Origin: Thermogutta sp.
GTDB taxonomy: Bacteria > Planctomycetota > Planctomycetia > Pirellulales > Thermoguttaceae
Direction of reading: 5' to 3'
Length of the DNA: 10,194 nt
Assembly: GCA_012798155.1 (NCBI GenBank)
Contig: JAAZNR010000281.1
Location: 1 to 10,194, forward strand
In this document: positions 1 to 10,194 of the stretch, in pieces
Position numbering within the stretch: position 1 is the first letter of the stretch
How the letters are laid out: the number at the start of each line of letters is the position of its first letter
Translations under genes and position numbers: made by a program
Notes under the pieces: model-generated
Seen by the model: only the letters and a program-made list of their open reading frames with translations
The model's database searches: none
Told to the model about the DNA's origin: nothing

Positions 1-491
1 CCCACGTCCATGTCGCTGGCGGTGCTGAAGTCGAACCGGACACGCAGGTTGTCCTGACCGGCGAACTGGCTGAGATCCAATCGGGCCTGACGCCAATTCC
101 CTCCCAGGTCGATGACCTCTCGGATGTACCCGCCGTACGGCCCTTGGTCGCGACTCGGAGCGATAAGACTGGCGTCGTTGAGGTCCGTATTGGTAGCCAA
201 CAGCGTCCAATCGGCGCCGTCGTTGGAGATGAAGACGCGGGCGCCGTCGAAATCGCTGCTGTTTTCGGTATCCGCGAAATAGTTGAAATAGAGCGTGGGC
301 TTGTCCGCTTCGCTGTATCCCGCCAGGCTGAACGTGCCGCTGGTCAGGCTACCGTGGGCACCGCCCGGCAGGTTGTAGGTCATCAGCCGGCTGCCGTCAC
401 TACCGCGATCGGTGGTGAAATTGATGGCACCGGGCTGAGATTGATTAGCATAACCATCGATGGGGTTGTCCAGCCCGAAATAATAACTTCG
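1..491 (-). other. Domain: jelly-roll, MAM / immune-inhibitor-A C-terminal-like, cut by left edge
   Basis: Residues 3235-3397. It holds SYYFGLDNPIDGYANQSQPG (3236-3255), GSLTSGTFSLAGYSEADKPT (3281-3300), LYFNYFADTENSSDFDGARV (3301-3320), FISNDGADWTLLATNTDLND (3321-3340), and NWRQARLDLSQFAGQDNLRV (3366-3385) with RFDFSTASDMDV. The order 'G.L.S..f.l.g...p.L.F.y....e...D.a.V.IS.dG..W..l', then 'W....iDLS.faGq..v.vRF.f.s' is that of jelly-roll ligand-binding modules found after secreted peptidases. The domain continues past the left edge. Confidence 0.7.
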
Positions 492-3400
492 GTTCCCCTC
501 CAACAGCGGATTGTAGCCTTCCGCGGGGACGCGGCTGGCATCGTACGTTTGGTAGATGCCGTGCCCTTGATCGTTCTTTCGGCTCTCGGTCCAGTGCCAC
601 AGGTTGTAGTCGATGGGCGAGAAGTCGATCCCGTAAATAGTCCCCACCGTGGCCGGGTTGACGCTGCTCGCCCCGTCCAGAAAGACGCCCAAGAGATCGC
701 CCGTGGCCTTCAAGGGGTCGCGCGACGCGCTCAAGGCGTAGACGTTTCCCGCCATGTCGGACGCGAAAAGGGTCTCGGCGTACTTCCCGCCTTCGGCGTT
801 CTGCGGACCGGTCGCCAACCCCGAGAAGGCGATGGGTTGGCCGGTGGTCGGATTGACGACTTGGCCGATGTAGTGGAGCTGCGGCCCTGCGCCGGGAACA
901 CGGGTGAAGTACCGCGGTCCGCTCTGCGGATCGACCGGTGTGAAACCCCACGAACCGCCGTTGGCGTGCGCGGTGACGTTGGTAATGTAATACAGTCCGC
1001 CGGCATCCGAAACGGCGTACAGCGTACTTCCGATATAAGCCATGCCGGTGATGTTACCGCCCACCCCCTCGCCCGCGAAATCGAGCTGGGGAGCGGGGGC
1101 GGTGAAGACGGGACTCCCCGAAAAAACACCGTGCAGTTGCACCGTCGCGCCGTAGACAGTCGCTACTACCGTGAACGGATCGCTATTGATGGCGGCTTCC
1201 ATCGCTTGGGCGACTTGCTGTGCCGTGTAGCCCGCCCCGATCGGGACGCGAACGCGTCCCGCCGTTACGCCGTGGGTGCCCGCGATCTGCGTTAGCGGCG
1301 CCGTGGAAGTAAACGATTCGGCGTTGAGGAAGGTAAGGCGGTCGCCCGGACTGTTGGGGTTGGCCACGGTCGTGGATCGAAATGCGTAGCTTGCGTCGAT
1401 ACGGTCCGCCGCCGGAAAGACCAGGTTCTGGCTGGCATCGACGATCGATTCGATCTGTTGGCCGAGCTGTTGCGACGTCCATGTCTCCTCGAAGGAAATC
1501 GGAATCCGCCCAAAGCTCACACCGTGGGTGCCTTGGATCGCCACCTGGGCCGGATCGCTCGTGGCGGGCGGAGTGATTTGCGAATCGTTGACCAGCGTGA
1601 CACGATTGTTCGCGGAAGTTGCGACCACCGTGAACGCACCCTGGGCATTGATGGCGTTGACCAAGGCGTCGGCCAGGATCGTGCCCGTGTCGCCGTTATT
1701 GAAGCCGATACGGACGTGGCCGTTGTTCGTCAACGCATTGTTGTTGTCGAATTCGAAGGTCACGGAGGCGTTGCCGCCGCCGGGCGCGGTCCCGAAGATG
1801 GTGACCGTCACGCCGTCGAGCGAAGGGCCCGCGGAAGCCGGGAGGACGACCACCGGCCCGCTGTCGAATTCGAACGTGGAGGTCTGTCCGTTATTGACGT
1901 TGACGAGACTGAAGGTCTGCCCGTCGCGAAAGGCCGTCGCGCCCTGGGGATCGATTTGGACGTCAAGTCCCAGATCGAATTCGAATTCCACCTTAACGGG
2001 AGGGTCGGCGTCATCCGTCACGGAGAACCAATCGCCGTCGGCAAAGTCGCGCGGTTGGACTCCGCTGCCGGAGTAGATAGGCTCGGTCTGGGAGGCGGGG
2101 TTGGCGATCAGGGTCGGCGCGGTAAACAGTTGCCCGACCGGCACGATATTGCTGAATAGGCGATCCCCGGACGCCCGCACTCCCTGATTGATGAGGTAGT
2201 GATTGATGGCCGTGCCTGACGGCGACAGAATCCACACCAAGTTCTGTCCCGAGGTAATGCCCGCGACGCCGCCCAGATCGGGGTTCGGCACGTTGCCCAC
2301 GATCATCACTTGGCGTCCAAGGTTGCCCGTGTTGGCCGGATTGTGGACCATCGCCTCGACGTACAAACTGTTGTAGGGATCGTTTTGCAGAGCGTTCAGG
2401 TTGTTGGGATCGCGGCGGATGATGTTGATCCCCGTGTCCTGGTCGACCAACAAGTTATTGGCGTTACCCGTGTCGAATTCGCGATAACGGGGGTTGAAAT
2501 CGTCGCCGGGGCCTTGGGTGACCGTCATCAGCCGGCCGTCATTCCGCATCGCGATGTCGTGATACACAATGGCGGGGCTACCGGGCAGATACGAGTCGGA
2601 CCAGTCCGTAACGTCCGTCTCGACTTGGCCCGTAAAGGGATCCACCGTGAAGAGGTCAATATCGGTGAGGGTATAAAAGACCACGTCGCCTAGTTTGAAT
2701 TCGTCGGGCACCAAGCTGAGTCGTTGCTGAGTAGCCGTGACATGCGAGGCGGGTCCCTGCTCGATGTGTTCCTCCACGATTCGGGCCACGGAGTTGACCG
2801 GCTCCATGCGAACGAGCGGATTTGCCGCGGAGTCGTCGCTCCAAGTTCCCCCGATGACGGAGGACAGGACTTCCGGCGTGGCCAGCGCCGAGGTGACGGC
2901 CACGTAATACGTGGTATTGGCGCTTTCCGGCAGGTAAACCGGCCCGATATACGGATCGCGATTCCCTACGGAGCCGCGATTGAGGTCCTCGATGGCGTTC
3001 CCCACCACCAGCGCCATGTCGTCGGCGATGTTGGAATCATTGCTGCGGAGGATCAGTCGGCCCTGGCTGTCGAAGACCCAGATGGCCAGATCGGGCCGCG
3101 CCATGCCGTCCGCGTAGTCGATGTCGAAGATGGTGGAGAAGATGCTCCCCAAGTCGTTCAACCCGCCGATCGACTGGATGCCCTGCAAGTCGATCTGGAA
3201 GCTATACCAGTCCACATCGGTCCGGCCGCTCAAGTAGCCGGCCACCGAGATGGTGTTGCGGTCCATGCGGAGCAGGTTGCCCAGCGGTTGCGCATTGCCG
3301 ATGGTGTCGTTGATTGCCGACGTTTCGGCGGCCTCGCCGAGCAGGGGGTGATGTTGCGGGAAGCCCAGCACCTCGACGCCGTTGGTGGCGTAGCGGACAT

Positions 3401-6400
3401 CGGCGTACTTGACGGCGGACCCCGCCACCTCCTGTATTTCGCGGAGGCGGACCTGCAACTGGTAGTTGCCAGCCGTGTTGGCCAGGAGCCGCAGGGGCGA
3501 GGTGAGGGGGTTGAATCGGGCGCGGACGCCGTCCAGAAAAATCTTGCCGTTTTCGTAGCGAGCGGTGATTTCGAAGTTTCGGGCCGATTTCTGGGCATTG
3601 ATCACCGCACTGACCGCAGCGGCGACCTGGGCGGAGCTCATGCCGTCGTTGACGGCCACGCGGACCGCCGCCGGATCGGAGAGCGTACCGTCCTTGTCGA
3701 ACTCGAAGACGATGCTCTGGAAGTCGTCGGAGACGATGAATTGAGCGCCGTCCGCAATCGCGGCCCCCGAGGGAATATCGGCCACGGCGATCACGCTGCG
3801 GACGCGAACGTAGTAGGTGCGGACTTCGCCCGCCGGCCCGGGAAGGATCAACCGCATGCCCGGGTCGCGCGGATTCATGCTGTAGAAATCGCCTTGCTCG
3901 GCGGGATCGCTGGAGGTCGAGCGGACCCAGGGGTCGCGATTCATGGGGTACGTGAGGGTCGTCACGGATCCTTGCGGGGTCTCGGTCAGGGAATTATCGC
4001 TGCGGGCGAGGACGTTGCCGTCGGCGTCGATCAATTCGATGATCGTATCCAAGGCGAACGTCGTGCGGTCGATGTCGATCCAGATTTCGGTCCCGGCCGC
4101 CGCGTCGAAGCTGTAGACGTCCGAGTCGGTCCGTTCGTCATAGCGGACGGAGCCGTGGATATCGAACCCCAGCCGCAGGTTGTCGTCGCCCGCCTTTTCG
4201 TTGGGCGCCAATTGCCCCATGGCTTGGGCCTGTTGCGGATAGGCGTTGACGTCGGTCACGCTGCCGGTGGCCGTCTCCCGTTCGACGATCGTGGCCAGGT
4301 TGCGATCGTGGCTGTAGCGATCGAAGCGGATGCTCCGCCACTGGCCGGGCGCGGCCCTGCTCGAGCCGTCGCCGTTGGTGTCGTACTGCGGATTGCCGAA
4401 GATGTCGAGACCCGCGCCGACCAAATCATCGGCCAGGGAAGTCAGCACCACCGGATAGCCCGGTTGGCCGACGACCTGAAGAATGCCGCCGATCCGGTCG
4501 TCGTATTCCAGCGGCCGACCGGACGCGGTGAATCCGGCGTCTTGCCCCCAGAGTTTCACTACCAAGCTTTGGGTGGGAGCGCTTTGCAGCCGCAAGCCGC
4601 CTTCGTGGTGGTAATTTCCGACCACGATCTCGCCGTACACCGCGTGCACGATGTCGGTGTCGTCCCAGACGCCTTGCGTGGTCAGCTCGCCCGCCCGGAC
4701 CTCCATCGCGTTCCGTTCGTTATCGGTCATGCGGTTGAGCGCGACCAACGGCCCGCGGTTGCCGTCGAACTGCGAGAACACGTCGATTTCGCCGGTGCTG
4801 CGCCCCCAATCGGGCACTTCCCAGGCGTTCAGCGCGTTGATGTCCGCGGAGATGATGTGGCCGGAATTATCGACGAAGCGGTTGTTGACGATGACGGGCT
4901 GGGCGCCGCGGACGTAGATCGTCGCCGGCGTGATGAAGCCGCGGCCGTTCCGGTCGCCCGCCGCATTGGCGCCGTTGTGCTCGAATCGCGTGTTGGCGAC
5001 ACGGACGTGTGCCTGCCGGATTTCGATGGGGTCGAAGCCTGCGAAGCCGCCCTCGATCGCGGTCTCTCCGCCGGCGTAGGCGATGATCGCTTGGTCGATG
5101 CTCCCCTCGGACAGCGGGGCGAAGCCGATCCCGCCCCAATCACCCTTGCCCGGCTGCTGCCCGCTGGTGTTCTGGGCCGTGTTGAAGGTTCCTCCCGCCC
5201 CGTAGCGATTGTCGAGCACGGAGGTGAAGACGACCTTATAACCGGGCACGGTCTCGGCGAATCCGGGGCGTCCCTCGGCGATGAGCTGCGCACCGACCTC
5301 GGTCTCGATGCGGCTGCCCTGCAACTTGACGATCACGCCCGGATCGACCTGCAAGCGGGAGTCGGTTCGGGCCTCCAAATTCCCCAAGCCCTCGATTTTC
5401 AATTGAGCGCCGCGCTGCGCGAGATTCACGCTGCCGCCGACGGCATTCGCCGCCACTTCCAGGCCGCGCGAGTCGGCCGCCTCATTGATTTTCGCGGCCA
5501 AGGAGGCGGCTACTTGCGACGCGGAATCCGTTAGGCTGAACGGCACTGCGATGCGGCCGGCCACCACGCCGTCGCCGTTATCGAACTCGAATACGACGCG
5601 AGTCCGACCGTCGAAGATCGAGAAGTACTGTCCGTCCAGATCGACGACCGCCGCCGAGGTCTCAAGCCGGAAATCGTCGGCCAGGGAGACGTTGGGAGCG
5701 GTCGATGCCCGCTCCATGGCACCGCCCGGCGTACCCGCGACGGCCAAATTCTCCGGCACGTAATGGACGATATCCCAATCATCCCAGCGGCCGAAGGTGG
5801 TGAGCTTTTTCGTGGCCCCGCCGGCGGGAGTCTTGATGCGGACGTACAGGCCGTTGATCGAGTTGTCCACGACGTAATTGCCGCGGATCACGGGGCCGAC
5901 GCGATCGTACTCCACGGTGTAGGGCTGCGCCGGGTCCCAGCTCTCGAACTTCGTGTCCGCGAAGCTGTTGGGATCGGCCGACATGGCGGCGTCGGCACTC
6001 CGCGTGACGCGGTTGAATACGACGGTGGGCCGGGCCTCGACCATGTGGATCGGGTTGTACACCGATCGCACGCCGTTCACGATGACTTCGCCGCCGCCGT
6101 AACGCATGTCGGCGTGGCTGACGTAGTTCAGAAAGATGCCCTGATCTTCCAGCACCTGCCGCGGCGGCAGCCCGCTCGCGGGGTCGTAGTTCCGGATGTA
6201 CTGATAATCGAGATCGTTGCGGAATACGATCCCGCCCCAATCGCCGGAGGCCGGCACGGTGTCGTTGGTCGGCTCGGGATCGCGTCCGAGCGATTCGTCG
6301 TAATACGAGGTGAAGTAGACGGGCAGACCGGGGATGCCCAGCACCTGCAAGGCCCCGCTGCTGCGGTCGATGCCCTCGGCCAGGCTGCCCACGGTGATAT

Positions 6401-9400
6401 TGGAGCGGAAGAGCTTGATCACGGCCCCGGCGTCGACCATGACGGTCACGCCCTGCGGCACCTCCATGCGAACGCCGTCGGCCATGGGGGCATTGTCCAC
6501 CAGACGCCGCCCGATCTCGTAGGGGACGTTGTCCTGCAACGTAGTCGGAGCATTCGGATCATCGTTGGCGAAATTGTTGCCCACGATTCGCACGATCTGG
6601 TTGGGCTGCGCCGCCGCGAACGCGCCCGAGATCGTTGTGAACGGCTTGCTCAGCGAACCGTCCGGCGAGGCATTGAAGGACAACTTGTCCACGAAGATGG
6701 TATTCGCTTCCGACTGGACGTTGAACCAGAAGTTGTACTCTCCGCCCGGCACGCCGTCCAAGTCGCCGTCCAAAAACAGCCCCGTCGAGTCGATGATCAT
6801 CGACGGATCGGCGGTGTTCGGCTCGCGGAAGGTCGTCGGATTGTTGGGATCGACCCCGCCGGGCGTGAAGTTCAATCGCAGCTTGTAGTCGCCCTGAGTA
6901 ACGCCGCCGATGCCGGAATCGTCGATGCTGGGATCGTACTGCGTGTTGCCGGAAGCACTGACCCCGATGAAGTACGTCCCCGCCGGGAGGTAGATTTCCA
7001 GGGCGGAATCCTCACTGTAGAAATCGTCGTTCCGGGCGACGACCTCGTAGGTGGTCTCGACGTACTCTTTCTCGACGGGTACGCCGTTTTCGATCACGAC
7101 ATATTGGCGCAGGGTATCCACCTGGCGATAGAGCGTGATGGCGGCGTCGAGCATGCTGGAGTTGCCCATCCGCTCAGCCAGGATCTCGGCACTCACCATG
7201 CCCCGTTCCTGGAGGTCGAAGCGGTACATGTCCACGTCCATGCTGTCGGGACGGTACATGTGGCGACCGTGAACGATGTCGGCCATGCCGGGAAAGACCG
7301 GCTCGAAGGTGCCGGTCGGCGTGGTGACGTCCTCCGAACTTCCCATGATCACGAACGGCGAGAGATCATAGCTGTGCCCATAGCCCAGCAAGTGGCCGAT
7401 TTCGTGCATGGCCACCTGGAACCAGGCGCCGCCGAACTCGCCGGCGCCCCAGTTTTCGGCGTAGTCCATGACGGCCACGCCGCCGCCCGCCACGCCGCCC
7501 ACGCCCCCCGGACCTGATTGCAACCCCATGAGGGCCAAATCGCCGGTGATGATCGCCAGTCCGCCGATCTCGCTCTCGTAGAACTGAATTCCTAAATACT
7601 CGCCGTAAATCGCGAAGATTTCCCGCGTCCGCTGCTTCTGGGCCTCCGTGATCAGATTGAAGCTACCCGTGGGAAAGTAAAATGGGATGCGCGGGATGTT
7701 GGTCGCACCGTCCGGGCTGGACTCGCCCGACAGGTAGTGATCCTCAATCAGGATGCTGTCGTAGTTCGGGAGATCGCGATGTCCGGGTTCGTCGATCGCG
7801 CCGGGCCACTCCAGCGTGTAGTCTTGCGGGATAATGGCGCCGGAAATGATGACGCTCTGCGGCGCGCCCGCATTTCCTAACCCCGAGACCAACAAGGAGT
7901 CATAGAAGGACGACCCGGCGTCCGGGCCTTCGCTCATGTTCCAAGTCTGGACCGTTTGATACCGGCTCCCGATCCGCAGTCGAGCTGCGCCGCTACCCAG
8001 CTCGGCCAAGTCCTGGCCGAAATCCAGGGTCGCCATATTCGCGTCGGGGTCGTAGGTCACGGAAGTCGGCAAGACGACCGTGTCGTCGTCGGGTTGCGCG
8101 GTACCTTGCGTGAAGATAAGCTGGTAAAACTCGGGATTGGTAGCCGCGTTCGTGTCGAGGAGATCGTTGCTGAAATAGACCTCGATGATACTCCGCTGCT
8201 GTTCCAGGCTGCGGACTTGGAAGTTGCTCGTGCGCGGATCGAAGGCCGCCGTCGCGCCGCTCAAGGTAATCAGCGCCGCAACGGGATCCGGAGTGACCGT
8301 CAGATTCAGCCCCTGGCCGATGATGGCTGCCGCGACCGCCGAGGTGACGGTTGCGGCCGTATCCGTAGCGCCGAAGGGGACCGCGATCCGGCCGGTCTGC
8401 ACGCCGTTATTCAGGGCTTGATCCTCGAACTCGAAGGTCACCTGAATCGTGCCGTCGCTGACCGCGAACGTCTGGCCGTCCGTAATCTGGCTGCCGGCGG
8501 GTACGGTTACGTGAATGTCGCCGCGATACACCGGTTGCGGGACGACGGCGAGAATCTGCGGTCCGAGGTTGACGTCGAACTCCAACGTCAAGTCCTGGCC
8601 CACCCCCAAATCGGGATCGAAACGGAAGGGAACGGGAGGCGAGTCCATATTCGTCAGCGGATTCTCGCCCGTGCCCTTGATGATCAAGTGATATTTGTCG
8701 TCGGGGAGGTTTTCCGCGAAACGTACGATCACTTCGTTCGGCCTGTCGCCGATACCGACGTAACCGATGGGCACGGCGACCTCGTTGCCCTCGGCGAAGG
8801 AGTCATCGCCCCCTGCTCGAACGAATTGGATCGCGCCCAACGTGTTCGGATCGAGTTGTTGGCCCTCATTGAACCGCAAGATCAGCTCGCGCGGAGCGAC
8901 GTTCAGCTCGGTCCCTTCCTCGATCAGGCTTCCTTCGTTGGGAATGACGGCGACGAGATCCGGCGGTACGCTGGGGATTTGCTGCCCGTAGACGGATAAG
9001 CGCCAAGAATTCAGTTGGCCGACCGTGCCGGTGACCCGATCGCGGACGATCAGCGTCCAGTCTCCGCCGGCCGATTCCCCCCAATTTCTGGCGGTGGTGA
9101 AAGTCCAGCGCATCCCGGTCTCGAACGGATCGTGGACGTGCGGTTCCGCCAAGACGGACTGCGTGCCGGAAGGCGAGACCAGGATGATTTCCAGGTCGCC
9201 CGGGTTTTGGTGGGTAATGTCCACCGTGACCTCGGCCCACTCCACGTGGTTGATCGTGGGCGCCATGCTGACCACCGAGGAGATGCCGGCCGGGTTGCCA
9301 TCTGGAATGACCCGGCTGACGCTCATCGTGCCGGAATCGAGGACCAATTCCGGCCCCACGGTCTTCCATGTTCGAGCCGCGGCGACGGCGGCCTCCGCGT

Positions 9401-10194
9401 CGACGACGCCGAAGCCGTACTTGTGGTTCACATGATAGCCGGCGGCGTTCGTCGTCCATCCCAGATCGCTCGGATCATTCATCCTCGCCGTCTGGGCGAG
9501 GATGTACTGGACATCACGGTACGTCAGGTTCGGATTCGCCTGGAGCATCAGAGCGATGATGCCCGAAACCAGCGGAGCCGCCGAGGATGTCCCGCCGAAC
9601 TGCGAGGTGTAGTCGATGTCGGGCAAGGGGTCGCCGTCGGCCGTGCCCGTGACATTGTAGCCGTCTTCGCCGAGACGGTCCGTGGTATAGATTCCCGAAA
9701 CCGCACCCTGGGAGTAAGCACTGACCAAGATGTTGGCGCCCGGCTCGGAGTACCAGGCCTGGCGGCCGTCGTGATCCACGGCGGCGACGGCAACGGTATA
9801 GCGCGAGTTGGCCCAGCCGTCGTAGTTGGAGTTATCGTTTCCCAGGAGGCCGTTGCCGGCAGCCCAGACGTAAATCGAGCCTAATCCGCCGCGGCCCGTG
9901 GTGACGCCTTGTTGCAAGGCCGCCAGACTCAGGGGGCCGGGGCCGGCCAAAACGGAGAACGGCAACCCGCCGCCGGCATCCGGAGGGCCCCAGCTATTGT
10001 TATAGATTTGAATGGCGTCGGTACGATGTCCGATGGCCTGGGCAATTTGCAAGTCCGTTAGGTAGCCGCCGATAAGGCGCAATGCCGCGAGTTGGGCGTC
10101 GAATGCCGCGCCCGTCACCCCGAGTCCGTTATTCCCCGAAGCCGCCGCGACGCCGGCCACCGCCGTGCCGTGGAAGTCGAAGGTCTCGGCCTGC
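1..10194 (-). CDS. Giant multidomain secreted protein, kexin-like S8 peptidase plus metzincin plus beta-rich modules (internal fragment, both ends missing)
   Basis: One uninterrupted minus-strand frame (codons 10193..3, 3,397 residues) fills the window. I checked every in-frame codon and found no stop. Both ends are open, so start, signal peptide and stop are outside. Domain order: S8 peptidase (1-282), P domain (285-403), two Ig-like Big_5 domains (406-745), metzincin peptidase (831-980), PPC-like (981-1111), beta-helix regions (1163-1483 and 1603-1970), PPC-like (1998-2252, split), PPC-like (2285-2440), propeller-like region (2476-3234, split), jelly-roll (3235-3397). A recurring FEFD module interrupts several of these. 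The chain has no cysteine and only about 31 lysines, and it is rich in Asp, Gly, Asn and Thr, as expected for an exported acidic protein. Such architectures are known to me from Planctomycetota; that taxon is an inference. The substrate and role are unknown. It is most likely a cell-surface or extracellular proteolytic or adhesive scaffold. No neighbour genes are visible. Confidence 0.96.
492..1121 (-). other. Propeller-like region, second part
   Basis: Residues 3025-3234. After the FEFD cluster, repeating units resume: LDFAGEGVGGNITGMAYIGS (3037-3056), TLYAVSDAGGLYYITNVTAH (3057-3076), RYFTRVPGAGPQLHYIGQVV (3094-3113), AETLFASDMAGNVYALSASR (3139-3158), and TVGTIYGIDFSPIDYNLWHW (3182-3201). 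The 'G.i.gmaY.g..LYAVsD.GgLY' pattern is a clear propeller-blade form. The chain then passes through DQGHGIYQTYDASRVPAEGY into the jelly-roll domain. Whether both parts form one propeller or two is not decided here. Confidence 0.55.
1122..1298 (-). repeat. FEFD half-module R7 (C-terminal half, GTHGV type)
   Basis: Residues 2966-3024. It holds TQIAGTHGVTAGRVRVPIGA (2968-2987), then GYTAQQVAQAMEAAINSD and closing strands FTVVATVYGATVQLHGVFSG. GTHGV is shared exactly with R6, and the following 'GR(I/V)x(I/V)', 'T(S/A)QQ(L/V)xQ' and '(I/M)E' positions line up without gaps over about 35 residues. It retains the AAIN helix end of the full modules. Confidence 0.7.
1305..1556 (-). repeat. FEFD half-module R6 (C-terminal half, GTHGV type)
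   Basis: Residues 2880-2963. The start is VAIQGTHGVSFGRIPISFEE (2884-2903), followed by helix-like TWTSQQLGQQIESIVDAS and strands RIDASYAFRS and DRLTFLNAES. The FGRIPISF segment aligns with GRIAVPF of the full modules, but the DGxxF..FEFD hairpin is absent. It pairs with R7 directly downstream. Confidence 0.65.
1557..1829 (-). repeat. FEFD module R5 (complete copy, following half-module R4)
   Basis: Residues 2789-2879. It holds SLDGVTVTIFGTAPGGGNAS (2791-2810), VTFEFDNNNALTNNGHVRIG (2811-2830), FNNGDTGTILADALVNAINA (2831-2850), and closing strands QGAFTVVATSANNRVTLVND (2851-2870). All elements of the module are present. It carries a longer, Gly-rich first hairpin than R1-R3. Confidence 0.8.
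1830..1949 (-). repeat. FEFD half-module R4 (N-terminal half only)
   Basis: Residues 2749-2788. It holds ATAFRDGQTFSLVNVNNGQT (2752-2771) and STFEFDSGPVVV, i.e. the first hairpin of the module (DGQTF as in R1). It lacks the 'GRIxVPF' and helix part, which is replaced immediately by the start of R5. Confidence 0.7.
1950..2768 (-). other. Propeller-like region, first part
   Basis: Residues 2476-2748. The sequence has repeated units of the form 'strand, D(P/T)xTG, strand'. Examples are DVVFYTLTDIDLFTVDPFTG (2503-2522), IVYHDIAMRNDGRLMTVTQG (2542-2561), LVDQDTGINIIRRD, NSLYVEAMVHNPANTGN, and NLVWILSPSGTAINHYLINQ (2651-2670). Such 'L.tVDP.TG' and 'LYA..' units are typical of beta-propeller blades. 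The unit count is not certain. After GDWFSVTDDADPPVKVEFEF the FEFD cluster interrupts, and propeller-like sequence resumes at 1121. No function is assigned; such regions commonly bind ligands or act as spacers. Confidence 0.5.
2874..3341 (-). other. Domain: PPC-like copy 3
   Basis: Residues 2285-2440. It begins LGEAAETSAINDTIGNAQPL (2285-2304), the usual 'E...ND....A..l' lead of PPC domains, then TISVAGYLSGRTDVDWYSFQ (2314-2333). LAIWVFDSQGRLILRSNDSN (2369-2388) and NTTYYVAVTSA complete the core. Between them is an insertion-like loop with GGLNDLGSIFSTIFDIDYAD. The preceding stretch (2258-2280, GSAVKYADVRYATNGVEVLG) looks like a further beta-helix coil or linker strand. No closing 'G.Y.L.v' strand is obvious before the next region. 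Confidence 0.75.
3438..3506 (-). other. Final strand of split PPC-like copy 2
   Basis: Residues 2230-2252. After the FEFD insert the sequence LTSPLRLLANTAGNYQLQVR (2230-2249) leads into LRE. GNYQLQVRL matches the usual terminal strand of PPC domains (compare GDYKLRLNF closing copy 1). It is read here as completing the domain begun at 4202. Confidence 0.6.
3507..3779 (-). repeat. FEFD module R3 (inserted within PPC-like copy 2)
   Basis: Residues 2139-2229. It holds AAIADGAQFIVSDDFQSIVF (2144-2163) followed by EFDKDG, then VRVAVNDGMSSAQVAAAVSA (2177-2196) with VINAQ, and closing strands ITARYENGKIFLDGV. The GRIAVPF motif of R1 and R2 is degraded here to VRVAVND. It sits between the penultimate PPC strand TYYVRVRS and the final strand GNYQLQVRLRE, the clearest case in the window of a module placed inside another domain. 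Confidence 0.8.
3780..4202 (-). other. Domain: PPC-like copy 2, first part (domain is split)
   Basis: Residues 1998-2138. Strand order is NLRLGFDIHGSVRYDERTDS (2005-2024), DVYSFDAAAGTEIWIDIDRT (2025-2044), LDTIIELIDADGNVLARSDN (2048-2067), and a long loop with PMNRDPWVRSTS. Then come MRLILPGPAGEVRTYYVRVR (2113-2132). This is the standard PPC sequence order: 'G.i...D.D.Y.F...aG..i.i', 'Ldt.i.l.d.dG..la.nDn', 'aG.YyvrV.s'. The last strand expected for the fold ('G.Y.L.v.') is missing here and turns up about 100 residues later, after an FEFD module, as GNYQLQVRLRE (2242-2252). Confidence 0.8.
4278..5387 (-). other. Right-handed beta-helix-like region 2
   Basis: Residues 1603-1972. It shows many short repeating strand-turn units: LQVDPGVIVKLQGSRIETEV (1614-1633), YKVVFTSVLDNRYGAGG, KGDWGGIGFAPLSEGSIDQA, IIAYAGGETAIEGGFAG, IRQAHVRVANTRFEHNGANA, ATIYVRGAQPVIVNNRFVDN (1757-1776), HIISADINALNA, PLVALNRMTDNERNAMEVRA (1815-1834), WDDTDIVHAV, and SLVVKLWGQ. 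The recurrent 'NxRFxxN' and 'xIxxAxxxY/V' pattern is that of pectate-lyase-like or NosD-like beta helices. A DTNGDG (1938-1943) loop could bind calcium. Several strands duplicate those of region 1. No enzymatic residues are identified. Confidence 0.7.
5388..5657 (-). repeat. FEFD module R2 (between the two beta-helix regions)
   Basis: Residues 1513-1602. Signature elements are VVDLDGQYFSIFDGRTRVVF (1516-1535) running into EFDNGDG, then AGRIAVPFSLTDSASQVAAS (1545-1564), helix-like LAAKINEAADSRGLEV, and closing strands GSVNLAQRGAQLKIEG. GRIAVPF is identical to R1 over seven residues. It follows the WDDWDIVH strand of helix region 1 and precedes the 'LQVDPGVIVKL' strand of region 2, so the two helix regions may be one solenoid interrupted here. 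Confidence 0.8.
5745..6860 (-). other. Right-handed beta-helix-like region 1 (with DUF1565/pectate-lyase-like start)
   Basis: Residues 1112-1483. After an acidic Asp/Gly-rich lead (FLDGDLDGVPGGEYNFWFN, 1140-1158) comes NTIFVDKLSFNASPDGSLSK (1164-1183) with PFTTISGAF. That is the usual entry of DUF1565-like parallel beta-helices ('D G S l . k P f . T I . . A'). Repeating short strands follow: GVTVMVDAGAVIKLFRSNIT, LQVLGIPGLPVYFTSYYD, SGDWGGIVFRND, YVSHADMRYGGGEVIVNG, PTVVFNRVTRS, VIRGNYVVDNSINGLYVRIK, and WDDWDIVH. Asn-rich turns such as GNYVVDNSINGLYV are typical of beta-helix coils. No lyase or hydrolase catalytic residues can be named, so it may bind polysaccharide or serve as a structural stalk. 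Confidence 0.65.
6861..7253 (-). other. Domain: pre-peptidase C-terminal (PPC)-like beta domain, copy 1
   Basis: Residues 981-1111, right after the metzincin. It opens with DVDMYRFDL, the 'D.D.Y.F.L' signature of PPC domains, and has AAITLYRQ in the mid-strand. It then has VARNDDFYSEDSALEIYLPA (1052-1071) and the closing GTYFIGVSASGN with GDYKLRLNF (1101-1109). PPC domains are beta-sandwich modules usually found after secreted peptidases; roles in substrate binding, secretion or processing have been reported for relatives. Here it is uninterrupted, which makes it a useful reference for the split second copy. Confidence 0.75.
7254..7703 (-). other. Domain: metzincin zinc metallopeptidase (matrixin / M10-like)
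   Basis: Residues 831-980. The zinc-binding motif HEIGHLLGYGH (930-940, codons 7374-7406) supplies His930, His934 and His940 with the general base Glu931. It is followed ten residues later by a Met-turn in FVIMG (Met950, 7344-7346). The N-terminal part has strand IPRIPFYFP, helix TEAQKQRTREIFAIYGEYLG (849-868), GLAIITGD, and a glycine-rich loop GPGGVGGVAGGGVAVMDYAE (894-913) before the active-site helix FQVAMHEIGHLLGYGH. This is the order of elements in matrixin-type metzincins. All ligands are present, so it is predicted active. No cysteine-switch is possible because the visible chain has no cysteine. Any other latency mechanism is unknown. Confidence 0.92.
7704..7958 (-). other. Linker between second Ig-like domain and metzincin domain
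   Basis: Residues 746-830. No catalytic motif is seen. The stretch starts YQTVQTWNMSEGPDAGSSFY, passes through VIISGAIIPQDYTLEWPG and DEPGHRDLPNYDS, and ends before the first strand of the metzincin. It may be a small beta element (a PPC-like remnant, since 'SGAIIPQDYTLEWPG' resembles the first strands of such domains) followed by an extended acidic linker, or part of the metzincin N-terminal extension. It is not assigned to a family. Confidence 0.4.
7959..8603 (-). other. Domain: second Ig-like Big_5-type domain, interrupted by an FEFD module
   Basis: Residues 531-745. The first part, GPQILAVVPQPVYR (544-557), is an Ig-like edge strand. It resumes only after the FEFD insert (567-652) with RSIIEVYFSNDLLDTNAATN (667-686), then PEFYQLIFTQGT, VLPTSVTYDPDANMATLDF and GAARLRIG. 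In the uninterrupted form I remember from Planctomycetota surface proteins, the VVPQPV strand and the 'QxRxxIxVYF' strand are separated only by a short loop. The insert therefore appears to sit in that loop. Fold assignment is moderate; the split is inferred from strand order. Confidence 0.6.
8238..8495 (-). repeat. FEFD module R1 (within second Ig-like domain)
   Basis: Residues 567-652. It holds the full signature: ITDGQTFAVSDGTIQVTFEF (570-589), then TGRIAVPFGATDTAATVTSA (600-619), a short helix-like AVAAAIIGQG, and a closing strand pair around LITLSG. It resembles R2, R3 and R5 elsewhere in the protein in the order of all its elements. Copies are divergent, so this is an old protein-level repeat rather than a recent DNA duplication. 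Function is unknown. Confidence 0.8.
8604..8978 (-). other. Domain: Ig-like SbsA/Big_5-type domain, first copy
   Basis: Residues 406-530. It begins with PPDLVAVIPNEGSLIEEGTE and continues with LILRFNEGQQLDPNTL, a block of VPIGYVGIGDRPNEVIVRF, and LPDDKYHLIIKGTG. This 'position of extremum, then LxLRFNEgqxLDP, then LPDdxYxLxIxG' layout is typical of bacterial Ig-like domains of the SbsA (Big_5) kind found in surface proteins. It probably acts as a rigid spacer between the serine protease and the rest of the chain. The assignment rests on pattern recognition only. Confidence 0.7.
8985..9341 (-). other. Domain: P domain (proprotein convertase P, P_proprotein)
   Basis: Residues 285-403, directly after the S8 domain. 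Diagnostic segments are VDITHQNPGDLEIILVSPSG (324-343), the WTFTTARNWGE stretch (363-373), GGDWTLIVRD (376-385), and the closing LNSWRLSVYG (394-403). In kexins and furins this beta-sandwich is needed for folding and stability of the catalytic domain, and in bacteria it also occurs as a C-terminal module of secreted proteases. Its position right behind a furin-like catalytic domain confirms the family assignment of the peptidase. Confidence 0.95.
9348..10194 (-). other. Domain: kexin/furin-like subtilase (peptidase family S8), N-terminally truncated
   Basis: Residues 1-282. The catalytic His is in FHGTAVAG (His8, 10170-10172). The oxyanion-hole Asn is in WAAGNG (Asn114). The nucleophile is in GGTSSAAP (Ser203, 9585-9587). 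NNSWGP (65-70) and the GIIALMLQANPNLTYRD stretch after the Ser closely follow the proprotein convertase branch, as does YGFGVVDAEAAV, which matches the end of furin-type catalytic domains. His-to-Ser spacing is 195 residues, somewhat longer than in furin. The catalytic Asp (DxG) normally lies about 40 residues before the His, so it should fall roughly 100 bases beyond the right edge. The three visible active-site residues are intact, so an active serine endopeptidase is expected. Its cleavage specificity cannot be read from the sequence. Confidence 0.95.

Follow-up and report, generated by a model that had tools for sequence, protein, structure and literature searches.

The stretch of DNA analysed here, referred to as the window, is a 10,194-nucleotide (nt) contig of Thermogutta sp. 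whose minus strand forms a single open frame from end to end (P0001, 3397 amino acids (aa)). Within this frame a small beta domain, which we call the module or guest, is inserted into loops of several larger host folds, and it probably also nests within copies of itself. In a congeneric genome (G167) the same gene lies in a frame of at least 6657 aa. The module spans ~90 residues and reads as a beta hairpin (DGxTFxI..VTFEFD), a strand (GxIxVxF), a helix (TAxxVAxAIxxAIN), and two closing strands. A sequence-only reading of the window had placed three full copies (R1, R2, and R3) and a cluster of four more (R4 to R7). All three full copies were recovered at their proposed positions, with expectation values (E) of 1e-17 to 1e-23, by a jackknife profile built from 504 training copies with the window's protein and 11 related proteins left out. 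The same profile detected a fourth full copy inside the cluster (nt 1817-1581), and the reversed window protein, used as a control, gave four matches, the best with E 0.0017. A profile iterated from four copies gave matches in 121 proteins: 632 full, 155 N-type, 174 C-type, and 7 unclear. A pattern search of the organism's own genome for the FEFD-coding DNA word yielded no match, and protein profiles were used instead. In the list of copies and their sites below, N-half and C-half denote the amino- and carboxy-terminal halves of a module.

3..10193, minus strand: incomplete open reading frame P0001 (open at each contig end), from a giant protein
8238..8504, minus strand: module R1, a full guest domain (aa 566-648, jackknife E 5.8e-22)
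7968..8567, minus strand: immunoglobulin-like (Ig-like) host domain split by R1, span including the guest (structure match)
5388..5657, minus strand: module R2, in one loop of a beta-helix-like region, as judged by eye (aa 1519-1592, jackknife E 3.3e-23)
3510..3779, minus strand: module R3, within a PPC-type domain (aa 2143-2222, jackknife E 4.1e-17)
504..2876, minus strand: propeller-like host region interrupted by the nest, span including the nest (assignment and limits by eye)
1944..2060, minus strand: nest, N-half (strands 1-2) of the outer module (aa 2715-2743, E 2.6e-4)
1830..1943, minus strand: nest, N-half of the middle module (aa 2752-2782, E 1.7e-6)
1566..1829, minus strand: nest, innermost complete module (full copy, aa 2793-2871, E 1.5e-17)
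1284..1541, minus strand: nest, C-half of the middle module (aa 2890-2925, E 2.5e-5)
1104..1283, minus strand: nest, C-half of the outer module (aa 2974-3022, E 6.5e-14)
3..440, minus strand: left flank only of a second guest site, the rest of which lies just outside the contig (from homologues; aa 3511-3941 of the G167 frame)

Host sites with and without the module

Homologous proteins were retrieved using either the nest or R1 plus its host, which enriches the set for modules, and sites were called filled or empty using profiles of the host flanks. The Ig-like host of R1 yielded 122 flank pairs in 122 proteins, 19 with an insert of 97-112 aa that in every case carries module signal and 103 with no insert (gap -3 to 12). 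At the PPC host of R3, 7 of 124 pairs hold a module (98-109 aa), 116 lack an insert (gap up to 27), and one contains a different insert of 292 aa. Pairs of the beta-helix-like R2 type (245 in 123 proteins) comprise 174 without and 71 with inserts of 71-336 aa, module signal being present in 9 of these inserts and absent from the other 62. The propeller-like flanks of the nest enclose inserts of 95-447 aa in 24 of 29 pairs and none in five; at this site the flanks match only in part in the empty P0034 and in the filled P0117, whose 95-aa insert is one module.

Hosts lacking the insert are thus found in large numbers at R1, R3, and R2, with five cases at the nest. AlphaFold models (pLDDT, the predicted local distance difference test, 88) place the R1 guest and its host apart, and in a structure search the two host halves match an uninterrupted Ig-like S-layer domain (SbsC 261-337, 77 aligned residues), the host closing on both sides of the guest in this one model. 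The earlier proposal of a guest domain is borne out by the empty homologous hosts and by the separation of guest from host in the R1 model. Its host kinds also look right, with the PPC assignment confirmed by Pfam (PF04151, E 4.4e-6, over the first 50 of 70 positions at 3966-4127) and the Ig-like one by structure match, while the beta-helix and propeller assignments were made by eye.

Two of the loops hold other domains as well. The R2-type loop of P0033, P0024, P0008, P0036, and P0052 contains a different domain of ~110 aa (fibronectin-like by eye), singly or in two copies, and therefore takes unrelated guests. The R3-type PPC loop of P0069 (aa 2066-2362) holds three copies of a repeat, FTLTFxGQTTAPI, found in 11 copies in 7 of the 127 proteins. 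We considered this repeat as a relative of the module and rejected it, as no relation was detectable (hhalign probability 0.4).

Nested order and its alternatives

The cluster had been taken for four modules, R4 to R7, and this count did not survive: it consists of two N-halves, one full copy, and two C-halves, which make three nested modules. The order N-N-full-C-C places one full module within two split ones, giving three levels in a propeller-like loop, and the halves are conserved across 18 nest homologues. The structure model of the nest is confident, and its predicted strand order is the one that nesting predicts. In that model the outer N-half forms strands at 35-40 and 47-53, the middle N-half strands at 73-78 and 84-90, and the outer C-half a strand at 294-297, a helix at 304-317, and strands at 323-327 and 330-334. 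Seven FliD chains align between model positions 53/55 and 283-289, consistent with both middle halves.

To read such clusters across proteins, N-halves were written as opening and C-halves as closing brackets. Half-profiles covering module positions 4-31 (N) and 36-85 (C) gave 758 N and 788 C matches at ≥4 bits in 127 proteins, with 0-1 in reversed or shuffled copies. Bracket reading was done at ≥2 bits, a threshold at which each reversed or shuffled control yields 3-4 matches per half. At this threshold the window reads ((())), and P0008 shows six openings, then six closings, and after them a complete module; its six-level region spans aa 3259-3820. Among clusters containing '((' or '))', 76 of 182 are perfectly balanced (shuffle mean 18, maximum 30, 1000 shuffles) and 136 of 1022 tokens are unmatched (shuffle mean 415). 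A balanced nest is present in 65 of the 127 proteins.

The second guest site forms a series in homologues, from no insert up to six nested levels, counts that depend on the detection of weak halves. Its 120 flank pairs in 111 proteins, G167 included, divide into 45 proteins without an insert (gap up to 39) and 66 filled proteins (75 rows, nine proteins appearing twice), whose inserts run from 118 aa to the 744 aa of P0008. In G167 the site reads (())).

We propose that the module is a guest domain that sits in loops of larger folds and nests in its own strand 2-3 loop, producing copies within copies, and assign this reading a probability of about 0.82. The guest would leave the larger folds unbroken. 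Halves part between strand 2 (FEFD) and strand 3 (GxIxVxF), the module's single insertion-tolerant loop; this loop accepts further modules, so copies nest within copies. We infer which halves pack together at the outermost level, and the module ends would lie side by side on a two-stranded stalk. A nest may then form an out-and-back spike with both ends together, able to be planted in a surface loop. Such nests could have arisen through in-frame duplication of module DNA into existing modules, followed by vertical inheritance and occasional precise loss.

Two caveats apply to the evidence for nesting. The outermost N-half (nt 2051-1965), which lies beyond the span first given for R4 to R7, scores only about six-fold better than the best reversed match and is weak evidence on its own because the reversed protein reaches E 0.0017; it does recur in nest homologues. 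In addition, the 182 clusters are not independent events, as their host flanks sort them into 9 site groups (62, 56, 51, 5, 3, 2, 1, 1, and 1 members), five of which hold a balanced nest. When one random member was drawn per group, a mean of 2.0 were balanced (range 0-5) compared with 0.5 in shuffles (maximum 3), and 7.5 tokens were unmatched compared with 18.6. Host flanks replaced single-linkage grouping by the clusters' own sequence, which merged almost all of them because the modules resemble each other.

In the second-largest site group (56 members) one outer module surrounds three or five inner modules arranged in tandem, reading (()()()) in 16 members and (()()()()()) in 14. Nesting and tandem repetition therefore combine.

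Recursive insertion might also be accompanied by domain swapping, with halves pairing across levels in an interdigitated rod, an arrangement with a precedent in the HABAS domains of RNA polymerase Si3 as reported in PMC11515920. The FliD structure matches leave the outer nest level uncovered, and a residue-coupling test of half pairing, which beat 0.78 of decoys on held-out modules, gave 11/21 for outer versus middle pairing. Both are compatible with swapping, which we nonetheless regard as improbable.

The history of the sites bears on a further alternative. In a tree of 81 copies, modules cluster by host site (7 label changes; shuffled mean 33.6, minimum 28). The host tree divides the filled Ig-like hosts in two: a group of 12 proteins with support 1.0, and another seven that lie among empty hosts (4 changes, against a mean of 18.0 and a minimum of 14 in shuffles). 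Filled R3 hosts share one region with isolated empty relatives (4 changes, against a mean of 7.9 and a minimum of 6 in shuffles), where the empty P0004 is sister to the filled P0123 (support 0.975). We read this as old insertions, two or more of them probably in the R1 loop, followed by precise loss, on trees in which several nodes have low support. Relative to G167, modules are 49-70% identical and the rest of the protein 78%, with nonsynonymous divergence (dN) of 0.22-0.51 and 0.163, respectively, and synonymous sites near or at saturation; modules therefore evolve faster, yet still under constraint. Site-specific mobile DNA of an intein- or homing-like kind, aimed at the sequence coding for the hairpin loop, could replace slow intragenic duplication as the source of copies. 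It would account for one Ig-like host loop having received inserts in two distinct host clades and from distinct module lineages, and for use of the strand 2-3 loop at every level of the nests seen. However, same-site modules are mostly inherited together and the copies are much diverged; we consider such an element very unlikely, though no search aimed at one was made. Ordinary tandem linker domains with decayed or truncated half-copies and no nesting, suggested by the many incomplete clusters (among 539, '(()' 35 times, a lone ')' 82 times, and a lone '(' 37 times), are equally hard to credit and already disfavoured given a bracket-like order far beyond shuffles, the six N-halves then six C-halves of P0008, the conservation of halves in nest homologues, and flanks that close in homologues without the insert.

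Host protein, affinities, and significance

Beyond the modules and their hosts, P0001 encodes the following domains.

9408..10184, minus strand: peptidase S8 (subtilase) domain, truncated where the contig stops (PF00082, E 1.7e-35)
8994..9245, minus strand: proprotein convertase P-domain (PF01483, E 9.9e-23)
7362..7592, minus strand: matrixin-like metalloprotease domain (PF00413, E 6.2e-6), with the motif HEIGHLLGYGH read from the translation

Positions 7362-10184 combine an S8 serine protease and a matrixin-like metalloprotease (HEIGHLLGYGH) within one chain. NCBIfam matched P0001 with two protease models only, both under their cut-offs. We infer from its domains that P0001 is secreted. The module may serve as a solvent-exposed spacer or adhesive decoration on a giant secreted protease or adhesin, by analogy with the outer domains of flagellin and phage tail sheaths, a role to which we give somewhat less than even odds.

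In the organism's own genome (88% complete), the module was detected at E ≤ 0.01 on the window contig and one other contig only. The latter (C658) carries an open frame with one module (L001), which is probably the downstream part of the window's gene. G167 has both in one frame, and the domains of the L001 contig, assigned by eye, follow in that same G167 frame. All R1-region homologues with a taxon in the listed name (best 120 of 250 found; 2417 scored) are planctomycetes, and a close match to the nest region carries the name Thermogutta sp. At E ≤ 1e-6 the module occurs in 39 of 117 genomes of the order and in at least 31 of 392 genomes of the phylum, a lower bound given that at most 14 candidates were scored per genome. 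Most of the listed matches lie in open frames of >1,000 aa, the full range being about 950 to 19,806 aa; the longest frame contains the match at G352:C1:478988-479203.

The sequence-only reading recognised no named family, and indeed the window's protein has no Pfam or NCBIfam match over its modules. Even at E ≤ 1, no Pfam family matches more than 6 of 30 aligned copies and no NCBIfam family more than 1. Its likening of the module to the flagellin hook IN motif finds support for the C-half. Flagellin_IN (PF07196; cut-off 22.7 bits) gave no Pfam match to the 3397-aa protein at E ≤ 0.1, and at E ≤ 1 it matched 6 of the 30 copies (best 0.0025), with unrelated families reaching 0.008. Profile-profile comparison of the 30 modules with 24 planctomycete IN segments (hhalign) reached probability 82 and E 1.1e-5 over 40 columns of the C-half, ten column-shuffled controls staying at probability ≤ 1, which supports a remote relationship between the two. 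The module differs from flagellin, FliD, and Flagellin_IN in its extra strand VTFEFD, and a Pfam scan of the window's partial frame found no flagellar domains, the rest of the gene not having been scanned as a whole. A profile search of PDB sequences ranked flagellin 4nx9 (E 0.0078) and FliD 6iwy (E 0.067) first among 17 rows, all weak, and phmmer with R3 alone found nothing better than E 0.14 there.

In structure searches the AlphaFold guest model matches outer domains of phage tail sheaths and of flagellin/FliD. The tail sheath family phrog_165 is matched by 4 of the 30 copies (best E 1.1e-5, the window's inner module) and phrog_18828, of unknown function, by 7 (best 1.3e-7). A whole tail sheath protein is not indicated, as only positions 105-169 of the 493 in phrog_165 match (65/493), in one of the four full window modules; phrog_165 had no match in 79 genomes of the phylum, the organism's own included, and tblastn of R3 against 50,697 phage records gave none at E ≤ 0.01. 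The inserted outer domain of the contractile tail sheath is by position of the gp18 domain I type, and unlike the present modules the nested gp18 domains differ in fold. A search for stand-alone module proteins gave eight small proteins at E ≤ 1e-5, several fragment-like; the short proteins P0131 (114 aa) and P0133 (164 aa) contain a whole module and are possibly stand-alone or phage-like forms. In our view the module and the outer domains of flagellin, FliD, and tail sheath fall into one broad fold group.

Nesting of domains has precedents. In T4 gp18, domain I lies within II and II within III, which is set between the two parts of IV (PMC3004832). For RNA polymerase beta' Si3, HABAS domains are described as inserted recursively, one into another, and swapped in some cases, and inserted domains are stated to be rarer than domains added at chain ends (PMC11515920). 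HABAS resembles our case in that copies of one small beta domain sit within copies in a single chain, so the present system is not a wholly new kind. As described in PMC11515920, HABAS is a four-stranded open sheet in a single housekeeping enzyme, a fold set apart from the module by description only, whereas the module occupies several unrelated hosts of extracellular type, with empty sites for each and a zero-to-six-level series. The hosts of R1 and R3 match bacterial Ig-like S-layer domains (SbsC, Sap) and PPC domains but differ in holding a foreign domain in a loop. No description of the module was found in the titles and abstract openings searched, where few subscription journals were in scope. 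Nesting, even self-nesting, is thus already known; as far as these searches show, the new elements are the host range, the empty sites matched to filled ones, and the graded series found at a single site.

Intermediate stages of a fold within a fold are seldom seen. Here several unrelated folds have matched loops that either hold or lack one unnamed domain, and these loops, with a series from none to six levels, allow natural sequences to be used to test in what order insertions occur, how well they are tolerated, and what they cost. We hypothesize, with confidence evenly divided, that this is a self-propagating guest fold in which the loop that exports copies also receives them, insertion at the growing tip generating the bracket-like grammar. 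If so, many natural intermediates would be at hand, both for domain insertion and for the building of surface spikes whose two ends are anchored in a host loop. The module offers a guest with a known entry loop, would connect a third group of surface-type proteins to the outer domains of flagella and of phage tail sheaths, and may explain part of the growth of giant proteins in planctomycetes.

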